64,000 bases of DNA from the IMG/VR virus record IMGVR_UViG_3300026116_000005, positions 1 through 64,000 of that record. One strand, given 5' to 3'. The DNA is from a virus. Shown piece after piece: positions 26,130 through 64,000 of this stretch (within the stretch, counting starts at the first letter, position 1; each line of letters opens with the position of its first letter). The notes under the pieces were generated by a model. It saw only the letters and a list, made by a program, of their open reading frames with translations, was not told where the DNA came from and ran no database searches. The translations under genes were made by a program, and so were the position numbers.

Positions 26130-26167
26130 GATAAAAAGAATGGCCCCCAGCTTTCGCCAGGGGCCAT
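26130..26167 (-). terminator. Intrinsic terminator of the PEP-CTERM gene
   Basis: ATGGCCCC (26140-26147) and GGGGCCAT (26160-26167) pair perfectly; on the minus strand TTCTTTTTAT follows. It lies 56 bases after the PEP-CTERM stop, so that gene ends its transcript before the next leftward gene. Confidence 0.85.
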
Positions 26168-26223
26168 CAGTATCACTTCAGCGGGTGAACGCACCTACAA
26201 AAGAACATCCACCAGCCAAATAA

Positions 26224-26964
26224 TTAGGCAGTCGCAACCTTACTGCGGCGACGAGCGCGGATAGCAGTGAGTCCGATCAGCGCGGCGGCACCCCAAAGGG
26301 TGAACGTCGAAGCCTCAGGAACTGGCGTGCCAAAACCGATCTCAGCCGTGTTGACCCGAACGATAAAGTTGAAATCGTTGTGGTCGTTATCGTAGGTGCC
26401 CTTGCGGTCTTCGTCGCCAAAGACGAAATAATTATAGTTCGGATCGTCCGTGGACTCGAAAACCTTTACGCCAGCGGCATCAAACTGAGTGGCGCTCTGC
26501 CCGGTGGAAAGGTCATTCCAAAGAAACGTAACCAAGTTCGCCGGGCTGGCGCTAGAGCCGGTGCCGGAAATCTTGATCGTGTTGAGCAGGCCAGCAGCGT
26601 TAGCCGAGCTGTAAAGCGTGTTATCGGTGCCAGCGAGGCCGAACGTAGTGAGCGTATCGGTATCGGCAGCGTTGCGAAACACGAATGCAACCTCGGCGCT
26701 CACGTCGAAAGAGCCGTTGTTTCCAACAGCAAAATCAGTCGGGAGAAGCGTGCCGGTCACATCGCTAAACGTCAGACCTGGAAGGGAACTGAGCGTGAAG
26801 CTAGACTGCGACCCGAGCGTGTTGAAGATTGCCTGATCTGAAGCGTTGGCGCGCTGGTCGCCACCGAAAGCAGTCGTCCCCTCGTTGGTGTAGGAGAGCT
26901 GCGCGAAGAGGGCACTGCCCGACAGAAGGGCGAGGGCCAAATAACTTGCGAACTTAAGTTTCAT
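26224..26964 (-). CDS. PEP-CTERM surface/exported protein
   Basis: The 246-residue protein has a signal peptide (MKLKFASYLALALLSGSALF), a beta-rich Ser/Thr/Gly/Asp secreted body with GTYDNDHNDFNFIVRV near 189-204 (an Asp/Asn-rich motif like DUF4114-type domains), and a C-terminal sorting signal: VPEAST (215-220), a membrane helix, and RARRR (236-240). Such signals are cut by exosortase, and the proteins go to the surface or extracellular matrix. No exosortase is seen here, so the host must supply it. It lies 37 bases after the protease gene and has its own terminator. It is unusual cargo for a phage. Confidence 0.85.
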   Translation of the reverse strand: MKLKFASYLALALLSGSALFAQLSYTNEGTTAFGGDQRANASDQAIFNTLGSQSSFTLSSLPGLTFSDVTGTLLPTDFAVGNNGSFDVSAEVAFVFRNAADTDTLTTFGLAGTDNTLYSSANAAGLLNTIKISGTGSSASPANLVTFLWNDLSTGQSATQFDAAGVKVFESTDDPNYNYFVFGDEDRKGTYDNDHNDFNFIVRVNTAEIGFGTPVPEASTFTLWGAAALIGLTAIRARRRSKVATA

Positions 26965-26990: not shown

Positions 26991-27009
26991 CCCTCTGAGT
27001 TTCAGAGGG
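26991..27009. promoter_or_regulatory. Tight hairpin between protease and PEP-CTERM genes
   Basis: CCCTCTGA (26991-26998) and TCAGAGGG (27002-27009) pair perfectly around a three-base loop. The minus-strand stem contains the protease stop codon and precedes the PEP-CTERM ATG by about 26 bases. Without a T-run it is more likely an mRNA-stability or attenuation element. Confidence 0.55.
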
Positions 27010-27838
27010 AATTGATTTTGGGGATGGTGGGAGAAACCATGTTCACGTCGAGTGACGTGCCGACCTTTCGGTTGGAGCCAATGTAATAAGCCTGTCCTCC
27101 GAGAGTGATAAAGTTGGGCGCGCCACTGTCTCCATATTCCAAATACGAGCCCGCAGGCTGAGGCGTGATCGTGGCATCCCAAACTCCGCCGGTGCCCTGT
27201 AGAGCGCGGGCAATCGTCGATTGCGTTGCGGCTGGCGTCCAGTTGTACGGCGCTTGTGTGCGGCTTCCAACGAGCCCGAAACTCACAGCCTGCTTTCCAG
27301 TGTAATCACCCAGTGCAAGAGAGCTGGTGAGGAGAGCTGGACTAACGCTCGTGACGTTGGCGGAGAGGTAGTAGAGTTCCAAATCGCCAAAGGTGAGCGC
27401 AACGCTTTTGACCGTGGCAGTCTCGACGCCAGTGGAACTATAGAACGAAATTCTATCGCCAGGCTTGAGCGCGTAGTGCTGCGCGGCTGCAACGACATTC
27501 GGACGAACGAGACAGCAAAGCTTAGGTGGGTTTCCAGCAACAACGCCGACCGACTCATAGAGATTACGAACGGTGATTGTCGCAGGCTTGTCGACCATCA
27601 CTGTTTGCGGCGGAGGATTCACCGTTACCTGGACCGGAGCAGGCGTGACCATCACTGTTTCACCGCCCACGTTTGCCTGAAAAGGCGGAGGCGTCACCGT
27701 CGCCACATACGAGGGCGGCGTGATTTGAACCGGGACCTTTTGCGCCGCAGCTTGCTGACTCTGAGCGCCAAAAAATGCGGAGTTAACCGCATTGTTTGCG
27801 AATGGCTGATTTGCCGAAGAGTATGATTGAATGACCAT
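27002..27838 (-). CDS. Trypsin-like serine protease
   Basis: The 278 residues have no signal peptide. Residues 30-90 are a Pro/Val-rich stalk with alternating VTV and PPP segments. The catalytic domain then shows VVAAAQHYAL (His121), TFGDLELYYL (Asp152) and EYGDSGAPNF (Ser238), the order and local motifs of chymotrypsin-fold enzymes. The stalk suggests display on the virion or a multimeric structure. It directly precedes the PEP-CTERM gene. Substrate unknown; candidates are host surface proteins or phage structural proteins. Confidence 0.75.
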   Translation of the reverse strand: MVIQSYSSANQPFANNAVNSAFFGAQSQQAAAQKVPVQITPPSYVATVTPPPFQANVGGETVMVTPAPVQVTVNPPPQTVMVDKPATITVRNLYESVGVVAGNPPKLCCLVRPNVVAAAQHYALKPGDRISFYSSTGVETATVKSVALTFGDLELYYLSANVTSVSPALLTSSLALGDYTGKQAVSFGLVGSRTQAPYNWTPAATQSTIARALQGTGGVWDATITPQPAGSYLEYGDSGAPNFITLGGQAYYIGSNRKVGTSLDVNMVSPTIPKINSL

Positions 27839-27930: not shown

Positions 27931-28488
27931 TTACGCTCGACCGAAATACGCCTTCGCCTCCCGCCAGGCCCGGTTGACGATTGCCATCGTGTTTGCATTG
28001 CCGCCTTTGTCAGGGTGATGGCGAAGTGCCGCACTTCTATAAGCTTCATTCACTTCATCAAAAGTAGCCGACACTCCCACTTGGAGGACATCGCGCCATG
28101 GTGTCGAGTCCGTGATGGGCGGAGGAAGCGCGACATAGCCCGCATAATCTTTCTCCATTGATCCAACACCCCAGCCGCGCTGAAGCCTGGTTGATTCAAC
28201 GTACTTCGCGAGAGCCCAAAGATTGTCCTCGATCTTACTCCACTTGTCACAAGGAAGCGCGTAGCGACGGCCCCTTAGCTTAAAATATATACAGACGCCT
28301 TTGTCTTTCGGAATATGACCGAGCGTCATGTTAGAGGATATGACAAGATCGCTCGCGTTAGAGATTTCGAGCTGCCTCTTAAGTTCGTCGATGGCCTGCG
28401 AAAGCGTGTGCGGCTTAAATCGCGACGCCGTTGGAACGGAAGTGCGCGGGAAATCGATTGGCCACGCGAGAGGGTAGGCAGTGCTCAT
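27931..28488 (-). CDS. J-domain protein
   Basis: The 185-residue frame from MSTAYPLAWP has an N-terminal domain with SDLVISSNMTL and CDKWSKIEDNLWALAKYVE, and a C-terminal J domain with HHPDKGG (HPD at 158-160). J domains recruit and stimulate Hsp70 (DnaK), so the phage may redirect the host chaperone to replication or virion assembly. The domain order, J at the C-terminus, differs from DnaJ itself. Confidence 0.85.
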   Translation of the reverse strand: MSTAYPLAWPIDFPRTSVPTASRFKPHTLSQAIDELKRQLEISNASDLVISSNMTLGHIPKDKGVCIYFKLRGRRYALPCDKWSKIEDNLWALAKYVESTRLQRGWGVGSMEKDYAGYVALPPPITDSTPWRDVLQVGVSATFDEVNEAYRSAALRHHPDKGGNANTMAIVNRAWREAKAYFGRA

Positions 28489-28685
28489 TTTTCCCACCCA
28501 ATTTTCTTTGAGACATCAACAGGGTCGATGATTTCAGACCGCTTGCGTGCCATGGCCTTTATGGCGTACTCGCCTGATTCGCCACCCCAAAAGGGCGATC
28601 CAAGCGGATCGAATCGATTCCTCGATAAAAGCTGTTCATAGCTCATGGCATCAATCTTGGATTTCAGTTCGTCGGTGAGTTTCAT
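28485..28685 (-). CDS. Small conserved phage protein
   Basis: MKLTDELKSKIDAMSYEQLL at 28685 opens 66 residues; FDPLGSPFWGGESGEY follows. I recall similar MSYEELLxRxRF...GESGEYW proteins in phages. It is ATGA-coupled to the nuclease upstream and to the J-domain gene downstream. Confidence 0.65.
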   Translation of the reverse strand: MKLTDELKSKIDAMSYEQLLSRNRFDPLGSPFWGGESGEYAIKAMARKRSEIIDPVDVSKKIGWEK

Positions 28686-29473
28686 ATAAACAACCTTGGG
28701 GGCTTCCCATTGGGAAAATAATTTCTCGACCAATGCCAATACTGCGCGACATGCCGATAAGCCTGATAGGCGTCGTCAAGTTCTTGAGTCGCCCACTCGC
28801 GCACGTAGAACGGCTCCGGCCTTAGCGAGTTAATCACGACAGAAAAACAACGGACTCCTAGCGGGAGAGAGAACATTTTTCGATGGGCCTCTCTGTAGGC
28901 GGCAAGCTGCATAAGCCAGGACTCTCGCCAATCTGGTTTTTCACCCGGCTTCACCGTGGTGCTCTTGTAATCTAACATGCAAATCTCATCGAATGGATTC
29001 ATATAAATAAGATCGCACCGACCGGCTGACGGCACGTCGTGATCGACAAGGATCAATTCCGCGTCAATCGAATGGTTTATATATCGCTCTCTGAAGTCCT
29101 CGTAAAATGGTATATAAGGCTGATAGGTTTCATTGACATGCTGACCCTTCTCATACGCTTCAAAAGCCTCGTGGCATCCAGTGCCCCAGTCCGCTGCGGC
29201 CTCGGCGTGTTTCTTGGAGTCTAGGTTAACGCGCTTTGCAAAAGAAGTATCGTCTTCACCGGGGTAACGCGGAAGCGTTAGGCAAGAGTGAAGGACTTGA
29301 TTCATTTTATATAACTCAAGTCCGTAGTTCCGCATTTCTCCGCAAATCGTCGAAACAGAAGCATAGAGCAGTTCCTTCCGCGCTACGCGCAAGTCAACGC
29401 CGTAGCGCGGATCACCGTTCTTACGATACCAGTGACTACCGCGCGGCGGCGTGATAAATTTAAGGTCGCTCAT
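28682..29473 (-). CDS. PD-(D/E)XK nuclease, RecB/Cas4-like
   Basis: The 263-residue frame (MSDLKFITPPRGSHW) has TGCHEAFEAY with His101, AGRCDLIYM with Asp154, CMLDYKSTT with Asp168 and Lys170, and QLAAY with Gln189 and Tyr193. This is the full RecB/Cas4 nuclease pattern including QxxxY. The enzyme probably works as the 5'-3' exonuclease partner of the ERF annealing protein encoded 3 kb upstream. There is no obvious CxxC iron-sulfur cluster. The start is ATGA-coupled to an HNH gene. Confidence 0.8.
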   Translation of the reverse strand: MSDLKFITPPRGSHWYRKNGDPRYGVDLRVARKELLYASVSTICGEMRNYGLELYKMNQVLHSCLTLPRYPGEDDTSFAKRVNLDSKKHAEAAADWGTGCHEAFEAYEKGQHVNETYQPYIPFYEDFRERYINHSIDAELILVDHDVPSAGRCDLIYMNPFDEICMLDYKSTTVKPGEKPDWRESWLMQLAAYREAHRKMFSLPLGVRCFSVVINSLRPEPFYVREWATQELDDAYQAYRHVAQYWHWSRNYFPNGKPPRLFI

Positions 29474-29940
29474 TTTTTGGATGCCTCCCATTGTCTGTGG
29501 GTAATCCGATAACATTTCCTGCAATAGGAATTATGCCCGCGCGATGCTGATCTATTTGGCGGAAACTTATAGCGCGACTGCACAAGGCCGCACCGGGAAC
29601 ACCTGCTCATTTCATCCGGGAGGTCCTTATTCCTTTTGCGCGAATTGCGATGCGACTCTAGCCACCGAATGTTTCCTGGAACATATCCAGCCGAATCGAT
29701 AATTCTATCTATAGAAGGTCTCTCCATGTTAATTGGCGGAGGATTATCCATAACCCATGCGATCAACTCCGCCCTAGTAAATCCAATCGGAACATTCCTA
29801 TAGCTGGGATCACTCCGCTTTCGATCAACAATCGCGGTCCACTTCGTGCCCGCCCAACAACGAAAGCAATACTTGCCGCGATAACGCGGGCGAGTACACC
29901 CTCCATTTCCGCAGGTACTTATAAACTTGAGATCACTCAT
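29470..29940 (-). CDS. HNH-type homing endonuclease-like protein
   Basis: The 156 residues contain CGNGGCTRPRYRGKYCFRC, a central PSIDRIIDSAGYVPGNIRWL stretch typical of phage HNH proteins, and a C-terminal four-cysteine finger (CSRCGLVQSRYKF then YCRKC). The first seven residues, MSDLKFI, are the same as those of the nuclease just downstream although codons differ. The gene sits between an 8-base and a 4-base overlap, as if inserted at the nuclease start. Confidence 0.75.
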   Translation of the reverse strand: MSDLKFISTCGNGGCTRPRYRGKYCFRCWAGTKWTAIVDRKRSDPSYRNVPIGFTRAELIAWVMDNPPPINMERPSIDRIIDSAGYVPGNIRWLESHRNSRKRNKDLPDEMSRCSRCGLVQSRYKFPPNRSASRGHNSYCRKCYRITHRQWEASKK

Positions 29941-32202: not shown

Positions 32203-32961
32203 TTAGGAGGCTGGAGTTGTTGGTTTTGCTGCCTCGGTCGCAGCGTCTAGTTTGTTATTGATCCACTCGATTGATTTTTCCGCATAGCCCCGTTCAAGCT
32301 GCGCAGCGGTCTCGACCCCCGCATTTGCGAGAATCTTTTCCACCCATTTTTTCCCGGTTGGCTCGGCGGAGAACTGCGCGAACTGGCGAAGCTGATCCGC
32401 CGTTGCTAACTCAACGTTTTTCCTGGGCTCTGGAGGGGTTGGCTTGGCTGGAACGGCAGGCTTCCGCGCGGGCGGCTTCTCTGGTTTGTCTTCGGGTTTT
32501 TGGTATCCAGCAAGTTCATACGTGCTGGCATCGGCGTCATTGTCGCCTTCAGTCGGAATACAGAAGACTTGGAAGTAACAATACTTGAGAGCGGCGCTCA
32601 TTGCTTTGTTGCTGCTCTTGTCACCTGAATCCATCGCCTCACCCACCATGCGGACGGTATGCATTGATCCGTCTATGACCGAGACGAAATCAAACTCCAC
32701 GTCGAGGACGGTATAAAAAAGCGTGCCACCTGTCTTGGTCTGGACTTCGCGCACATCGCGACTCATCACGCGCGGGAGCACGCAGAGCTGATGCTTCGCG
32801 AGCTGCGGGCCGACTGCGGCGTAGCAATCGTCAATTCCGCGAAACTTGTAATGCTGGGTAGAATTTTCTCTGGTCTTACCAATGCCCTCGATGGACATGG
32901 CAGCTTGAACCGCGTTGATCGCAGAGTAAACCTTGGGAGTTTGGGTCTGAGTCTCACTCAT
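32203..32961 (-). CDS. erf: ERF-family single-strand annealing protein
   Basis: The 252-residue protein shows YKFRGIDDCYAAVGPQL and GEAMDSGDKSSNKAMSAALK, signatures of the ERF superfamily, which anneals complementary single strands in phage recombination. A Pro/Lys-rich linker leads to a C-terminal helical domain. It begins right after the A-rich leader element and forms a replication/recombination unit with SSB and the PD-(D/E)XK nuclease. Confidence 0.9.
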   Translation of the reverse strand: MSETQTQTPKVYSAINAVQAAMSIEGIGKTRENSTQHYKFRGIDDCYAAVGPQLAKHQLCVLPRVMSRDVREVQTKTGGTLFYTVLDVEFDFVSVIDGSMHTVRMVGEAMDSGDKSSNKAMSAALKYCYFQVFCIPTEGDNDADASTYELAGYQKPEDKPEKPPARKPAVPAKPTPPEPRKNVELATADQLRQFAQFSAEPTGKKWVEKILANAGVETAAQLERGYAEKSIEWINNKLDAATEAAKPTTPAS

Positions 32962-47110: not shown

Positions 47111-48328
47111 TTAGATGTGAATCGCGCCAGGCGGACGATAGCCGTCTTTGAGGTTCACGAGATGCGCTTTCACCCAGCAAACCTCGCGCTGATCTTTTTC
47201 AGTTGTATAGAGTCTGACCGCCTGAAATCTAACTGGCGTGTCTATATACTTTGCCCAATTTCTGTCCGTGTAATATAAAAAAGAATTCTCGTTCCAAAAC
47301 GAAACGTGCGTCGGGTCTTGGAATGCTCCTCGTCCATCAGTCGAGGGGACCTGGCAAAATAACCACCCGCCGGGAACAAGCACGCGGCGAACCTCTTTCA
47401 TTGTGTGAACTGAATCTAGAAGATGTTCGAAGGTGTCGAAAGATCGGATCACTCCTACGCTATTGTCTTCGAGCTTCCATGTTTCGTTTAGATCGGAAAT
47501 TATATCGGCATCTTTAAGATCAACCGTGGTATATCCATTCTTTGCGTTCATCCTTCCTCCGACCTCAATCTTTAGGAGTTTGTTTTCATCGCTCCACTTC
47601 TCGACCATGCCTTCTATATATTGGTCATAGATTCGCATGACGTTCTCCTGAATCTCTCTGTTGTGAATGAAGGAGGCGTTCTCTCGGGTGTGACGGTAAA
47701 TATATAATGGCCTGTCGATATGCCTAAACTTAGTGACCATGAAAAAACGGCACATTAAATCCTGGTCATCTAATACCCTCATCTCTGTGCTGTAGCCTCC
47801 AATCGCATCGTAAACTGATTTCCTGAAAGCGCGAAGATGGTTTGGCGCATACCAGATTCGAGATACCGCCTCGGGTGACGGAGGAAATTGGACAGTCTCA
47901 TTAACCTTCACATCTCCGATTTCAATCGTCCTGTACTTCCAGCCAAAAACATCGGAGTAAGGGACTGGCGACTCGCCCTTGTCGTCAAGGTCAACCGTAT
48001 TTGAATAGACAAATCCAATTTCAGGATCGCGAAAGGCCTCGATAACCTCAGAGACCGCGCCTCGTCCTAAGAGGTCATCGTGATCCAACTCCAGAAGAAT
48101 ATCTCCCTCGGCCTTGCTACATGCGAATGCCTTCAAAGGGCCAACCCATCCGCGAGTGTCTTCGCAGTAAAAATGCTTAATCCGATGATCCCGTAGCGAC
48201 TCAACTTTCCTGGCTCCGTTATTATATACGATGATCCACTCGTGAAACGGCTGGTCTTTGATCGACTGCCAAATTTGTTCGAGAAACTTGGCGTTGTGCG
48301 TTGGCGTAAAAATACTGACTTTAAGCAT
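47111..48328 (-). CDS. Glycosyltransferase family 2 fused to a SAM methyltransferase
   Basis: The 405 residues hold a GT2 domain (VSIFTPTHNAKFLEQIW; DxD in LLELDHDDLL around residue 97; residues 1-230) and a class I methyltransferase (IEVGGRMNAKNGYTTVDL, SFDTFEHLLDSVHTMKEVRRVLVPGG; residues 250-405). It could add a sugar and methylate it. It sits between structural genes, so the virion fibres are likely substrates. Confidence 0.8.
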   Translation of the reverse strand: MLKVSIFTPTHNAKFLEQIWQSIKDQPFHEWIIVYNNGARKVESLRDHRIKHFYCEDTRGWVGPLKAFACSKAEGDILLELDHDDLLGRGAVSEVIEAFRDPEIGFVYSNTVDLDDKGESPVPYSDVFGWKYRTIEIGDVKVNETVQFPPSPEAVSRIWYAPNHLRAFRKSVYDAIGGYSTEMRVLDDQDLMCRFFMVTKFRHIDRPLYIYRHTRENASFIHNREIQENVMRIYDQYIEGMVEKWSDENKLLKIEVGGRMNAKNGYTTVDLKDADIISDLNETWKLEDNSVGVIRSFDTFEHLLDSVHTMKEVRRVLVPGGWLFCQVPSTDGRGAFQDPTHVSFWNENSFLYYTDRNWAKYIDTPVRFQAVRLYTTEKDQREVCWVKAHLVNLKDGYRPPGAIHI

Positions 48329-58795: not shown

Positions 58796-59525
58796 GTTTT
58801 TCCCGGACGATAATTTGAGCAGACTCGTCTTTCACGCCGTGCAAGAAAACAGGCAGGCCCTTCACACCCTTGAGAAGGTGATCGCTAGGGTATTCACGAA
58901 TTGAATACAATTCATCTTCGACAATGCTTTTCTTCCGGTAGTCCGAAAAGATCAGCGGCGTGGCTCGCATTCTCCCAGCTAAGGTCTTGGCGTGAAAAAT
59001 GTCCCACGGATGCATCGAGGGGGACATGTAGAAATTTGGAATCTCTTTCTGGATGTGGGTAGAAACTAGGCAGTTTCCATTCAGGTGTGGGGTCCTAAAT
59101 TGCGACTGAGAAATCCAGTGACCAAGAATGAGCTGGCTTCCCGAGTACCAGTCTTTCTGAAGCTTCGCGATCCAGTCCTTATCGAGCGGCACGCAGTCGG
59201 CCTCAAAGAAAAGAGCCGCATCGTAGTCCCAAATTTTTCGCTTAACCATACTCGTGACGTGGGCAAGCGAATCGAAAAAAAGATCATTACATCCAGCGGG
59301 CCATCCGGCAGTGTTGTGCCTGGAATGATATAGATGCACCTCCTCAAATTTCTTCGTGAGATAAAGATAGGTGCCCATGTCGTCCTGTGTATCGTACCGA
59401 TAGGCGATCATGAAGTCCGCATGTTCGGACTTCTTTGGCTCGATGTCAGCAATCAACCTGGCGAGCTTCATCGCCATCAATCGGTCCCCGGCGTAGCACT
59501 GCAAAACCAGCAAGAGTTTTTTCAT
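58764..59525 (-). CDS. Glycosyltransferase-like protein
   Basis: The 253 residues look GT-A-like: MKKLLLVLQCYAGDRLMAMK, then WDYDAALFFEADCVPLDKDW with a DxD-type acidic cluster, and a C-terminal domain with FSDYRKKSIVEDELYSIREY. It likely transfers a sugar from a nucleotide sugar in the cytoplasm. ATGA-coupled to the next glycosyltransferase upstream. Confidence 0.7.
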   Translation of the reverse strand: MKKLLLVLQCYAGDRLMAMKLARLIADIEPKKSEHADFMIAYRYDTQDDMGTYLYLTKKFEEVHLYHSRHNTAGWPAGCNDLFFDSLAHVTSMVKRKIWDYDAALFFEADCVPLDKDWIAKLQKDWYSGSQLILGHWISQSQFRTPHLNGNCLVSTHIQKEIPNFYMSPSMHPWDIFHAKTLAGRMRATPLIFSDYRKKSIVEDELYSIREYPSDHLLKGVKGLPVFLHGVKDESAQIIVREKLVQHEAGRLS

Positions 59526-60295
59526 GGGTATAGGTTTCTTGCTGATGCGTCTTCATCCACCCAGCGCAGAAAGTTTTTCAATTTAACGGGCCACTTCCGC
59601 GTCATCTGAAGTATTTTCCACTGAAGGGCTAAATTTTCGTATCCGTAATACTTCTCTTTTAGCACGACCTGTGAATCCAAAACGTAGGCGTAATGATTGA
59701 AAACCAGACCGAGCTGGCGAGTTTCCTCGCGCTTTATTTCCATTCCCTTATTGCCGTCTAAGTTGGGCGGCTCATGGGTGATCCATTTCATTCCCGGCTT
59801 ATATCTCCACACCCTGAGCCATTCGTTCGTTTTGTTTCCGTAGGATTTTTCACCCTCGGTTACGATGTTCGGGCCAATAAAGTAATTACAAAAGAAACGC
59901 GCATGCGTCGCCTCAGGGTTTTCTCCGAATAGTTTTATGATCCCTCGGATTTGATCCGCAGTCCAAAATTCATCGCTGTCGACCTGGAGCAAGATCGCCT
60001 CTTCACTCATCTGAGGAATCGGCGCATTGACCATCTCGACCTTACCCTGCCAAAGCGGACTACGATAAACCTTCACGCGCGGGTGCCTGGAAATTGCGTC
60101 GAGGAATTGCACGGTGCCATCGGTCGACGGACCGCCAACTGGCTTTCGGCACCACTTCGTGTCTTTCACATTATTGGCCGGACCCTCTACAATATGCCAT
60201 CTCCAGTCTATCTCCGTGAGAGAATTTAAGATCGGAAGGTGATGCGCAAGCCATGGCATTCCGTTGTGAACTATCGTCAAGACCTCCAGCTTCAT
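59522..60295 (-). CDS. Glycosyltransferase family 2-like protein
   Basis: MKLEVLTIVHNGMPWLAHHL at 60295 opens 257 residues. The VLTIVHNGMPWL nucleotide-sugar site, LLQVDSDEFWT acidic site and a later WITHEPPNLDG fit a GT2-like fold. It is ATGA-coupled at both ends. Confidence 0.75.
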   Translation of the reverse strand: MKLEVLTIVHNGMPWLAHHLPILNSLTEIDWRWHIVEGPANNVKDTKWCRKPVGGPSTDGTVQFLDAISRHPRVKVYRSPLWQGKVEMVNAPIPQMSEEAILLQVDSDEFWTADQIRGIIKLFGENPEATHARFFCNYFIGPNIVTEGEKSYGNKTNEWLRVWRYKPGMKWITHEPPNLDGNKGMEIKREETRQLGLVFNHYAYVLDSQVVLKEKYYGYENLALQWKILQMTRKWPVKLKNFLRWVDEDASARNLYP

Positions 60296-60981
60296 ACCAT
60301 CCCCTTGATATGAAGGTCTCTTATCTCGTCTGGAGTAAAACGCTGCGCATACCAAACGGGATCATCAAAATTGATAGGCCTGGACCTGTCGTAACCAAAG
60401 CTAAACCTTTTATATTTTCGGTCGTCCATTCTCTCTAAGTTAGCGAACTTATGCTCAGGAAGATTTTGAATATCTCGGTCTCCTCCCATCGAAAGGTAGT
60501 CCTTAACAAAATCAGGAATGGCGGCGTGCTTAACCAGGAACAGCGATTGAGCGCACGGCATCCCCGTGTAGTTTCCGAAGATCATTCCAGCGTGTCCAAT
60601 TTCTGAATACATCGTGTCGATGTAAGGCCCGAAAGCCAACACGTCTTGCTCTCTGTAAACAAAGTCTAGTTCGGCGTTATAAGCCAGCATTGCCAGGGCT
60701 ATGATGCTCGCTGACCACCCACCAAATACGTGCGGCTTAATGTCGTTAATTAGGTGATGGACGTGGCCCAGGTTTCCGTCGAAATCAATCACCTGAGTTG
60801 GGCAAGGCATGGCATTCCTAACGTGCATGGGATAGATCGACCCTCCCACTGATATAATTATCGCCTTCCTTGGCCTTGGCTTGGTGTACCTCGTCAGATT
60901 TTGAACCCAAAGCGTTGCAAACTCCTCGGCGCGCTCCGCTGAGTTTCCTTCGTAATATCCGCTGCCAAGTAAGTAAGTCAT
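60292..60981 (-). CDS. Putative glycosyltransferase
   Basis: MTYLLGSGYYEGNSAERAEE at 60981 opens 229 residues. KAIIISVGGSIYP and DFVYREQDVLAFGPYIDTMY, with an acidic pair before a hydrophobic strand, suggest a nucleotide-sugar enzyme. Gene order supports this more than sequence does. Confidence 0.55.
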   Translation of the reverse strand: MTYLLGSGYYEGNSAERAEEFATLWVQNLTRYTKPRPRKAIIISVGGSIYPMHVRNAMPCPTQVIDFDGNLGHVHHLINDIKPHVFGGWSASIIALAMLAYNAELDFVYREQDVLAFGPYIDTMYSEIGHAGMIFGNYTGMPCAQSLFLVKHAAIPDFVKDYLSMGGDRDIQNLPEHKFANLERMDDRKYKRFSFGYDRSRPINFDDPVWYAQRFTPDEIRDLHIKGMV

Positions 60982-62128: not shown

Positions 62129-62584
62129 TTACTTGATCGCCTCGATGCGGGCGGTTTCCAGGTCGTCCTTTTGCTGCCCAATCACTTTAAAGTGACCGTC
62201 TATAGGGCTACGTCCAGTGGTGCGAATGTTCATTGGGTTGAAACCTGCGACCTGCAAAAACTTTTTAATCAGGTCGGTCGTGTACGCCGCTTGATGGCCG
62301 TGATTCATGATGATGTCTTTTGCCTGCGGACCATGAAGCCTATCGAGCACCGGCATGCAAATTCGCACAATGCCTCCCGGCCTGAGCACTCGGCGAATAT
62401 CTTCGAGTAAAAGAAGAAATTGCTGCGGAGTGATATGCTCGAAGGTGTGCTCACCAAAAAGGAAATCAACCGTGCTATTTGAGAAGGGCAGCGGAAGCTT
62501 CGTGAAATCCAGCTCTGAATCAAAATTCTGGAATCCTTCGAGGCGATTGCCGCCGCACCCTAGCTGAATCTTTACGAAGGGCAT
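62129..62584 (-). CDS. SAM-dependent methyltransferase
   Basis: The 151 residues show KIQLGCGGNRLEGFQNFD, LPFSNSTVDFLFGEHTFEHI and RRVLRPGGIVRICMP, the Methyltransf_11 signature. It overlaps the upstream glycosyltransferase by 13 bases. Confidence 0.8.
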   Translation of the reverse strand: MPFVKIQLGCGGNRLEGFQNFDSELDFTKLPLPFSNSTVDFLFGEHTFEHITPQQFLLLLEDIRRVLRPGGIVRICMPVLDRLHGPQAKDIIMNHGHQAAYTTDLIKKFLQVAGFNPMNIRTTGRSPIDGHFKVIGQQKDDLETARIEAIK

Positions 62585-64000
62585 ATTTGATCGTCGTTAT
62601 TGAATTTAAGGGTCGGCTGATTGCGCACAGCCCAATCACGAAAGAGCTTTCGGTTATGAACGTTCGCCGGGCTTGTCATCATCGAAGCCCAAGAACTCTC
62701 ATGCGGCTCGTGAAGCGCCATCCCTGCGGGCAGCTCGCACGGGAAAAAATCAGTGGAAAAGTTCCTGAAAGTCGAAGCGATTCCTCGGGTCTGTCGAATA
62801 TAAGCAGCGACACCTAAATCAAAGGCTTCGGTGCCAATGAAGTAATCAGGAATCTTCGGCAGGTGAAGGCGAAGCCACCCGGCACGGAAGGCGAAGAGTT
62901 CGCGTCCCATGTGTACGTCTTCCACGCCGGGCTCAAGCCTGCGCATCGAAACTGCGTCCCAAATAAGCACATGCTTGCGAAGCTCCTCCAACGATCCGGG
63001 CTTTAACTCCACGTCATCATTGATCCAAACAACGCAATCATCCTCGCTTTGAGCCAGCTCCAGCGCCGACTTAAAAATATCCGAAAGGTAGGGAAGGGCT
63101 CGCGGGTCCTTAATCTCGCGAGCTGTGCGACCCCAGCCTGAGCACAAATTTGTAACCGTGCTTTCGCTCCACGCAAGAGGCCAGGTCGATTGCGCACGGT
63201 AATGCCGGTCGGTTTTTCCATGCATGTGAACAACGTGAATCACGCGGCTGCTCACTTTCTTTCGATTGGCAGCGGCCTCGACCGCATCTCCTACCTTGAA
63301 TAAATCATGCCTGGCCTCACCATATCGAAACGCGGTCACAGACTGCGGAGGGGGAAGGCTCCCGAGCCACCCGTCGTTGAGAAGAGCAATGACGGGTGTT
63401 TTTGAAGCTCTTGCCAAATGCAGATGTAGTGTATCTATGGATACAAGAAGATCGGCGGCGTCGATCAAGCCAATGAGGTCGTAGGGGTGCCGGGCCTTAA
63501 CTTGAGAAAGATCGACAATCTGGTGGTCCGGGCATTTTGCCGTGATTAAATTCCGAAGCTCTTGCGCCAACGGGAACGGCGAAGACACTCCGTTTATCGC
63601 AATTAAAATCGCGGGCCTATCTGGCTCGATGTGCTTGGCGACTAGCTCCGTCTCTGCCTCGTGATCCCGTCGATCAAAGATAAGCGGGATCGCACCAAAG
63701 AGAGGCAAGACGCCAGCGATACGCCAGGCTTCCTTGCTGTACGAATCAGTTAGGCGCTGCTTATCGGGATGTTTATAGGCCTGGAAAACAAGCGGATTAA
63801 ACCCCTGTGATTTTTGAATTCTGATCGCCTCTGAAAGCTGCGTGTAATCGCCCTCAAACTCTACCGGATCAACATAGCTGACACCGTCGAGGATCGAGCG
63901 GAAATTCTTTGCCACGACAAAGCGCGGCCTAGCGCCCTTCCGCGCGAGCGAGTAAGCAGCGGGAAGGGCGTTCACCACATCACCCAGTCTTCCAAGCGCA
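62572..64000 (-). CDS. Two-domain glycosyltransferase (GT9-like plus GT2-like), 5' truncated
   Basis: The gene runs off the right edge; in frame with 63978 the sequence continues upstream as ALGRLGDVVNALPAAY, the usual GT9 start, so the visible GTG at 63978 is not the true start. Residues 1-230 look like a GT9 heptosyltransferase (LIDAADLLVSIDTLHLHLA, APxHxAxAxxxPxxAL pattern). Residues 250-468 carry VVWINDDVELKPGSLEELRK, a second GT-A-like domain. Confidence 0.7.
   Translation of the reverse strand, partial: ALGRLGDVVNALPAAYSLARKGARPRFVVAKNFRSILDGVSYVDPVEFEGDYTQLSEAIRIQKSQGFNPLVFQAYKHPDKQRLTDSYSKEAWRIAGVLPLFGAIPLIFDRRDHEAETELVAKHIEPDRPAILIAINGVSSPFPLAQELRNLITAKCPDHQIVDLSQVKARHPYDLIGLIDAADLLVSIDTLHLHLARASKTPVIALLNDGWLGSLPPPQSVTAFRYGEARHDLFKVGDAVEAAANRKKVSSRVIHVVHMHGKTDRHYRAQSTWPLAWSESTVTNLCSGWGRTAREIKDPRALPYLSDIFKSALELAQSEDDCVVWINDDVELKPGSLEELRKHVLIWDAVSMRRLEPGVEDVHMGRELFAFRAGWLRLHLPKIPDYFIGTEAFDLGVAAYIRQTRGIASTFRNFSTDFFPCELPAGMALHEPHESSWASMMTSPANVHNRKLFRDWAVRNQPTLKFNNDDQICPS

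Follow-up and report, generated by a model that had tools for sequence, protein, structure and literature searches.

Can a phage encode a protein that is sorted to the surface of the infected cell by an enzyme of the host? This question is raised by an open reading frame with an ATG start at 26224–26964 (minus strand) of the analysed window, which comprises bases 1–64000 of a 69,145-base IMG/VR virus record. In an initial annotation, its 246-residue product was described as a phage-encoded PEP-CTERM surface protein. The assignment as a gene for a PEP-CTERM-like exported protein draws on the reading frame, a full-length but sub-threshold match to PF07589, amino acid composition and codon usage.

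A PEP-CTERM-like protein at the end of a phage gene run

The protein (first residues MKLKFASYLALALLSGSALFAQ, last residues TPVPEASTFTLWGAAALIGLTAIRARRRSKVATA) shows only two hydropathy maxima, at approximately residues 5–23 and 221–235. The former corresponds to a predicted Sec signal peptide, MKLKFASYLALALLSGSALFA (26902–26964, minus strand), with the cleavage site placed by eye between ALFA and QLS; the latter lies in the C-terminal tail. The intervening body peaks at 0.84 on the Kyte-Doolittle scale and hence, by hydropathy alone, contains no membrane segment, as in PEP-CTERM proteins. The body is acidic and cysteine-free. Asparagine, threonine and serine account for 31% of its residues, a content that ranks top among 26 window genes, and lysine and arginine for 3.6%. 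This composition agrees with that described for bacterial PEP-CTERM bodies, which feature few basic residues, very low cysteine and raised threonine, serine and asparagine (Haft 2006, PMC1569441). No homologues of the body were found in viral contigs, species genomes, phages or plasmids. An Asp/Asn-rich stretch, FGDEDRKGTYDNDHNDF (26350–26454, minus strand), lies ahead of the tail and weakly resembles DUF4114 (PF13448, 10.9 bits, E = 0.05, under the 27-bit cut-off). The single-sequence AlphaFold model has a mean pLDDT of 35, which leaves the beta-rich body of the initial annotation unproved.

The sorting tail, VPEASTFTLWGAAALIGLTAIRARRRSKVATA (26248–26325, minus strand), is composed of a VPEAST motif, a hydrophobic stretch and a RARRR end. 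It covers all 24 positions of the Pfam PEP-CTERM model (PF07589), and the match stops 8 residues before the stop of the gene. Searched as a protein, the tail scored 13.8 bits, and the 69-kb record gave 18.2 bits (E = 3.3e-4), both below the curated gathering score of 20.7 bits; at E ≤ 0.01, none of the 14 control genomes gave a match. No NCBIfam model reached its cut-off against the protein. The near-invariant Pro-Glu-Pro reads Pro-Glu-Ala in the window tail, a replacement found in 4 of the 72 proteins of the signal-peptide-bearing set, window protein counted. Because both the score and the tripeptide depart from the family standard, the protein is best named PEP-CTERM-like; from its sequence, it plausibly works like a PEP-CTERM protein. 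The observation in the initial annotation was confirmed and its interpretation partly supported: the data support a phage-encoded, secreted protein with a tail of the PEP-CTERM type.

The same features could belong to an ordinary phage membrane-anchored protein, having a signal peptide, a C-terminal anchor and a basic end, which would resemble PEP-CTERM proteins by chance and never leave the inner membrane, where it might act in superinfection or lysis timing, for instance. Both the sub-threshold score and the PEA variant are compatible with such an anchor, and hydrophobic-plus-basic C-termini occur in 11 of the 476 window ORFs (all frames). However, the VPEAST motif, its spacing and the basic end jointly yield the E-value of 3.3e-4, the body has the composition of PEP-CTERM proteins, and VPEAST tails scoring above the Pfam cut-off exist in other phages, such as L002, L003 and L004. 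We consider a chance likeness of this kind unlikely.

The gene closes a same-strand gene run, following genes for recombination and DnaJ-like proteins. Upstream, on the minus strand, are an Erf-like single-strand annealing protein (32203–32961; phrog_155, E = 3.7e-35), a PD-(D/E)XK exonuclease (28682–29524; phrog_298, E = 4.6e-17; PF12705) and a phage DnaJ-like protein (27931–28497; phrog_9210, E = 2.8e-40; Pfam DnaJ) with relatives in 29 phages; the gene lies among phage genes, as annotated. The immediate upstream neighbour (27002–27838, minus strand), which encodes 278 residues of no assigned family, is separated by 37 nt from the PEP-CTERM-like gene, and the two probably share one transcript. 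A strong intrinsic terminator (26139–26168, minus strand; 13-pair stem and T-run, fold z-score -3.2) is located directly downstream. Codon usage is phage-typical, the PEP-CTERM-like gene being the third best fit among 26 genes in a leave-one-out comparison.

The 278-residue neighbour has no Pfam, PHROG or PDB relative and no signal peptide. A beta-repeat segment at about residues 40–80 is the sole confident part of an otherwise poor model (mean pLDDT 39). The order of its motifs, AAQHY, GDLELYYL and GDSGAP, recalls, at the motif level only, the His-Asp-Ser triad of trypsin-like proteases.

Elsewhere in the window, a DnaB helicase, a tail-fibre-like protein and an AAA-ATPase common to known tailed phages are encoded. 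Two Pfam models recognised no terminase, and the likely head proteins had no PHROG match; the phage nature of the window is therefore deduced from families of replication, recombination and tail proteins, together with the IMG/VR classification. Several glycosyltransferase genes are found among the structural genes (47111–48328, 59522–60355 and 62572–63978, minus strand), and encode a GT2 domain fused to a methyltransferase-like domain, a GT2 and a weak GT9; their products could glycosylate a protein of the virion or of the surface. Shine-Dalgarno-like sequences precede only 3 of the 26 well-supported window genes, approximately the chance level, hinting at a host phylum that makes little use of them. 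An exact scan of species genomes for VPEASTFT gave no match.

L116, an 8-kb IMG/VR fragment, is genuinely related to the window phage: it encodes an ATPase 62% identical to that of the window and has several other genes in common with it, but stops short of the PEP-CTERM region. Relatives retrieved through the ATPase revealed no PEP-CTERM protein, and three further proteins of the window phage had no relatives in viral contigs.

PEP-CTERM tails in other virus records

IMG/VR was screened by three motif scans, checked by reading frames; as certain motif spellings only were searched, the resulting total is a lower bound for the collection. PEP-CTERM tails were identified in about 91 other virus records. 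In 23 of these, found in the first two scans, the PF07589 match exceeds the curated cut-off. The other 68, judged by script, come from the 76 loci of the third scan and contain an ORF ending with PEP, a hydrophobic stretch and basic residues; a simple hydropathy rule detected a clear signal peptide in 49 of them. The arrangement seen in the window protein recurs in these records. After removal of signal peptide and tail, 87 sufficiently long proteins fell into 29 body clusters, the largest of which has 25 members; the window protein is a singleton.

Seven virus records, and likewise two further loci, carry two tail matches each. Paired, closely spaced PEP-CTERM genes are found in G006, G010, G011, G012, G014, G015 and G018, which include a 45–48-kb soil phage lineage. 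Terminase genes are present on 22 PEP-CTERM records (9 in the first set and 13 of the 45 tested in the second set). In L039 and L037, a portal gene is found within a few kb of the PEP-CTERM gene; in L031, L035 and L013, the PEP-CTERM gene is adjacent or close to a phage helicase gene (phrog_62). Polymerase, ParB, methyltransferase, portal and terminase are among the neighbour families of the second set. Some IMG/VR records are incomplete, and a few possibly represent host DNA, making absence counts soft. L062 (IMGVR_UViG_2784746777_000003) also carries a PEP-CTERM tail, and its record name suggests an isolate genome and not a metagenome; it may be a prophage amenable to culture. The presence of such genes on about ninety further virus sequences from the environment suggests that many phages remodel the surface of the infected cell via the host's own sorting enzyme. 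This recurrence is a stronger result than the window protein itself.

The recurrence bears on whether the window gene is merely a host gene captured by chance, namely a bacterial PEP-CTERM gene taken up and still intact but with no selected role in the phage. Chance capture would be easy, as PEP-CTERM genes are numerous in exosortase-bearing bacteria (65 in Verrucomicrobium spinosum, PMC1569441), and the window body is unlike other phage bodies. In contrast, the codon usage is fully phage-like, and the gene is part of a compact phage operon, 37 nt from its neighbour and followed by a dedicated terminator. In other phages, the recurrence of such genes, their tandem pairs and the body family of 25 members argue for selection; passive capture is, in our judgement, improbable.

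Exosortase (PF09721) is absent from the whole 69-kb record, which bears out the initial annotation on this point. None of 18 virus records had a match above the cut-off, and one weak sub-threshold match was seen. Tyrosine integrase was detected in 2 of the 26 PEP-CTERM virus records tested (G011 and G050), and neither in the window record nor in the 23 others. Because 24 of 26 records are devoid of it, we favour a role within lytic infection rather than lasting lysogenic conversion, through which a temperate phage would give its lysogen an altered surface or biofilm behaviour. Apart from the two integrases, ParB-like families that neighbour the PEP-CTERM genes of some other phages are in line with lysogenic conversion; the test covered tyrosine integrases, on records that may be incomplete. 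On balance, we regard lysogenic conversion as very unlikely.

A refuting circumstance named in the initial annotation, host DNA misjoined to phage DNA, is hardly credible: although the record is metagenome-derived and a second assembly of the region was not found, same-strand phage genes with tight spacing upstream, phage-like codon usage, the terminator after the stop and the recurrence of the arrangement on many independent virus contigs that also encode a terminase or portal protein all speak against it.

Comparison with known systems and a candidate mechanism

The window protein is like the bacterial proteins of the exosortase (EpsH, PF09721) system (PMC1569441; PF07589, TIGR02595) in the signal peptide and in the lack of an internal membrane segment. 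The two also share an acidic, cysteine-poor, Asn/Thr/Ser-rich body without homologues (PMC1569441), as well as a C-terminal PEP-like motif followed by a hydrophobic stretch and a basic end. In contrast to the bacterial proteins, the window protein is phage-encoded, and its tail scores below the cut-off and features PEA in place of PEP. Bacterial PEP-CTERM genes form single-gene operons after a large intergenic region, whereas the window gene is part of a compact phage gene run, and the record carries neither exosortase nor EPS genes.

Bacterial PEP-CTERM proteins tie polysaccharide to cells and drive flocculation (PMC9850573). A PEP-CTERM protein of Aquincola moves polysaccharide from the soluble to the bound fraction and restores flocs (PMC9850573). 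PepA of Aquincola tertiaricarbonis (PMC9850573), for which binding of polysaccharide to cells is the tested class function, is comparable to the window protein in architecture; unlike the phage gene, pepA is chromosomal and RpoN-regulated.

The nearest precedent seen is a single sentence on Yellowstone virus genes, in which 13 TIGR03118 proteins are mentioned as acquired horizontally and as having a putative tail for exosortase interaction (PMC11003980). These proteins are similarly virus-borne and have an exosortase-type C-terminus, but constitute a single defined family, are not treated as phage effectors, and their model (TIGR03118) gave no match to the window protein. Phage PEP-CTERM genes are not described in PMC12642866 or PMC4960237. 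No paper describing phage-encoded PEP-CTERM proteins was found in the full-text literature, most subscription journals being outside its scope, so priority is not proven. Five phage PEP-CTERM proteins had no match in 50,697 deposited phage genomes, and a tail query, possibly masked by the low-complexity filter, likewise gave none.

Phage proteins known to modify the surface or to exclude superinfecting phages are lipoproteins or membrane proteins. By description, they resemble the product of the window gene, as exported proteins with a presumed site of action at the envelope of the infected host; unlike them, the window protein would use a sorting enzyme of the host.

We give about an even chance to the explanation that we favour, in which the phage makes an exported protein with a host-type sorting tag that is sorted by the host exosortase to the surface or matrix, where it alters adsorption or matrix and aggregation properties. 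The 246-residue protein would be synthesized during infection and cross the inner membrane by Sec. The C-terminal helix would then anchor it in the inner membrane, with VPEAST at the periplasmic face, where the host exosortase would recognise the motif and cut there, following the model of PMC1569441. The released acidic, Ser/Thr/Asn-rich and probably glycosylated body would reach the outer surface or the exopolysaccharide matrix, and the resulting protein coat may lower the adsorption of competing phages, or alter matrix binding and aggregation. Surface display, blocking of other phages and effects on aggregation had been put forward in the initial annotation, and we infer them likewise.

The phage would benefit through either superinfection exclusion or changed polysaccharide and aggregation. 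Competitor exclusion is slightly favoured as the gain, because several phages carry the gene among replication or recombination genes and most are devoid of integrase; such placement and the scarcity of integrase would suit action during lytic infection. The sub-threshold tail score, PEA in place of PEP and the ATPase-linked relatives without PEP-CTERM count against host-assisted surface sorting of the window protein.

More broadly, phage PEP-CTERM proteins may be a widespread and so far undescribed class of infection-time surface effectors, with bodies that diverge and genes that occur in tandem. Through them, many unrelated phages of exosortase-bearing bacteria, most of them without integrase, would employ the host exosortase to give the infected cell a new coat; we rate this generalization slightly short of even. 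The PEP-CTERM/exosortase system has been described as bacterial, with few assigned functions. Should phages carry exosortase substrates repeatedly, phage and host would interact through the exosortase pathway, and recurrence across phages makes the question testable. If true, the phage genes would be compact single-gene tools for studying how exosortase-route display affects adsorption, matrix and aggregation in bacteria of soil, sediment and sludge.
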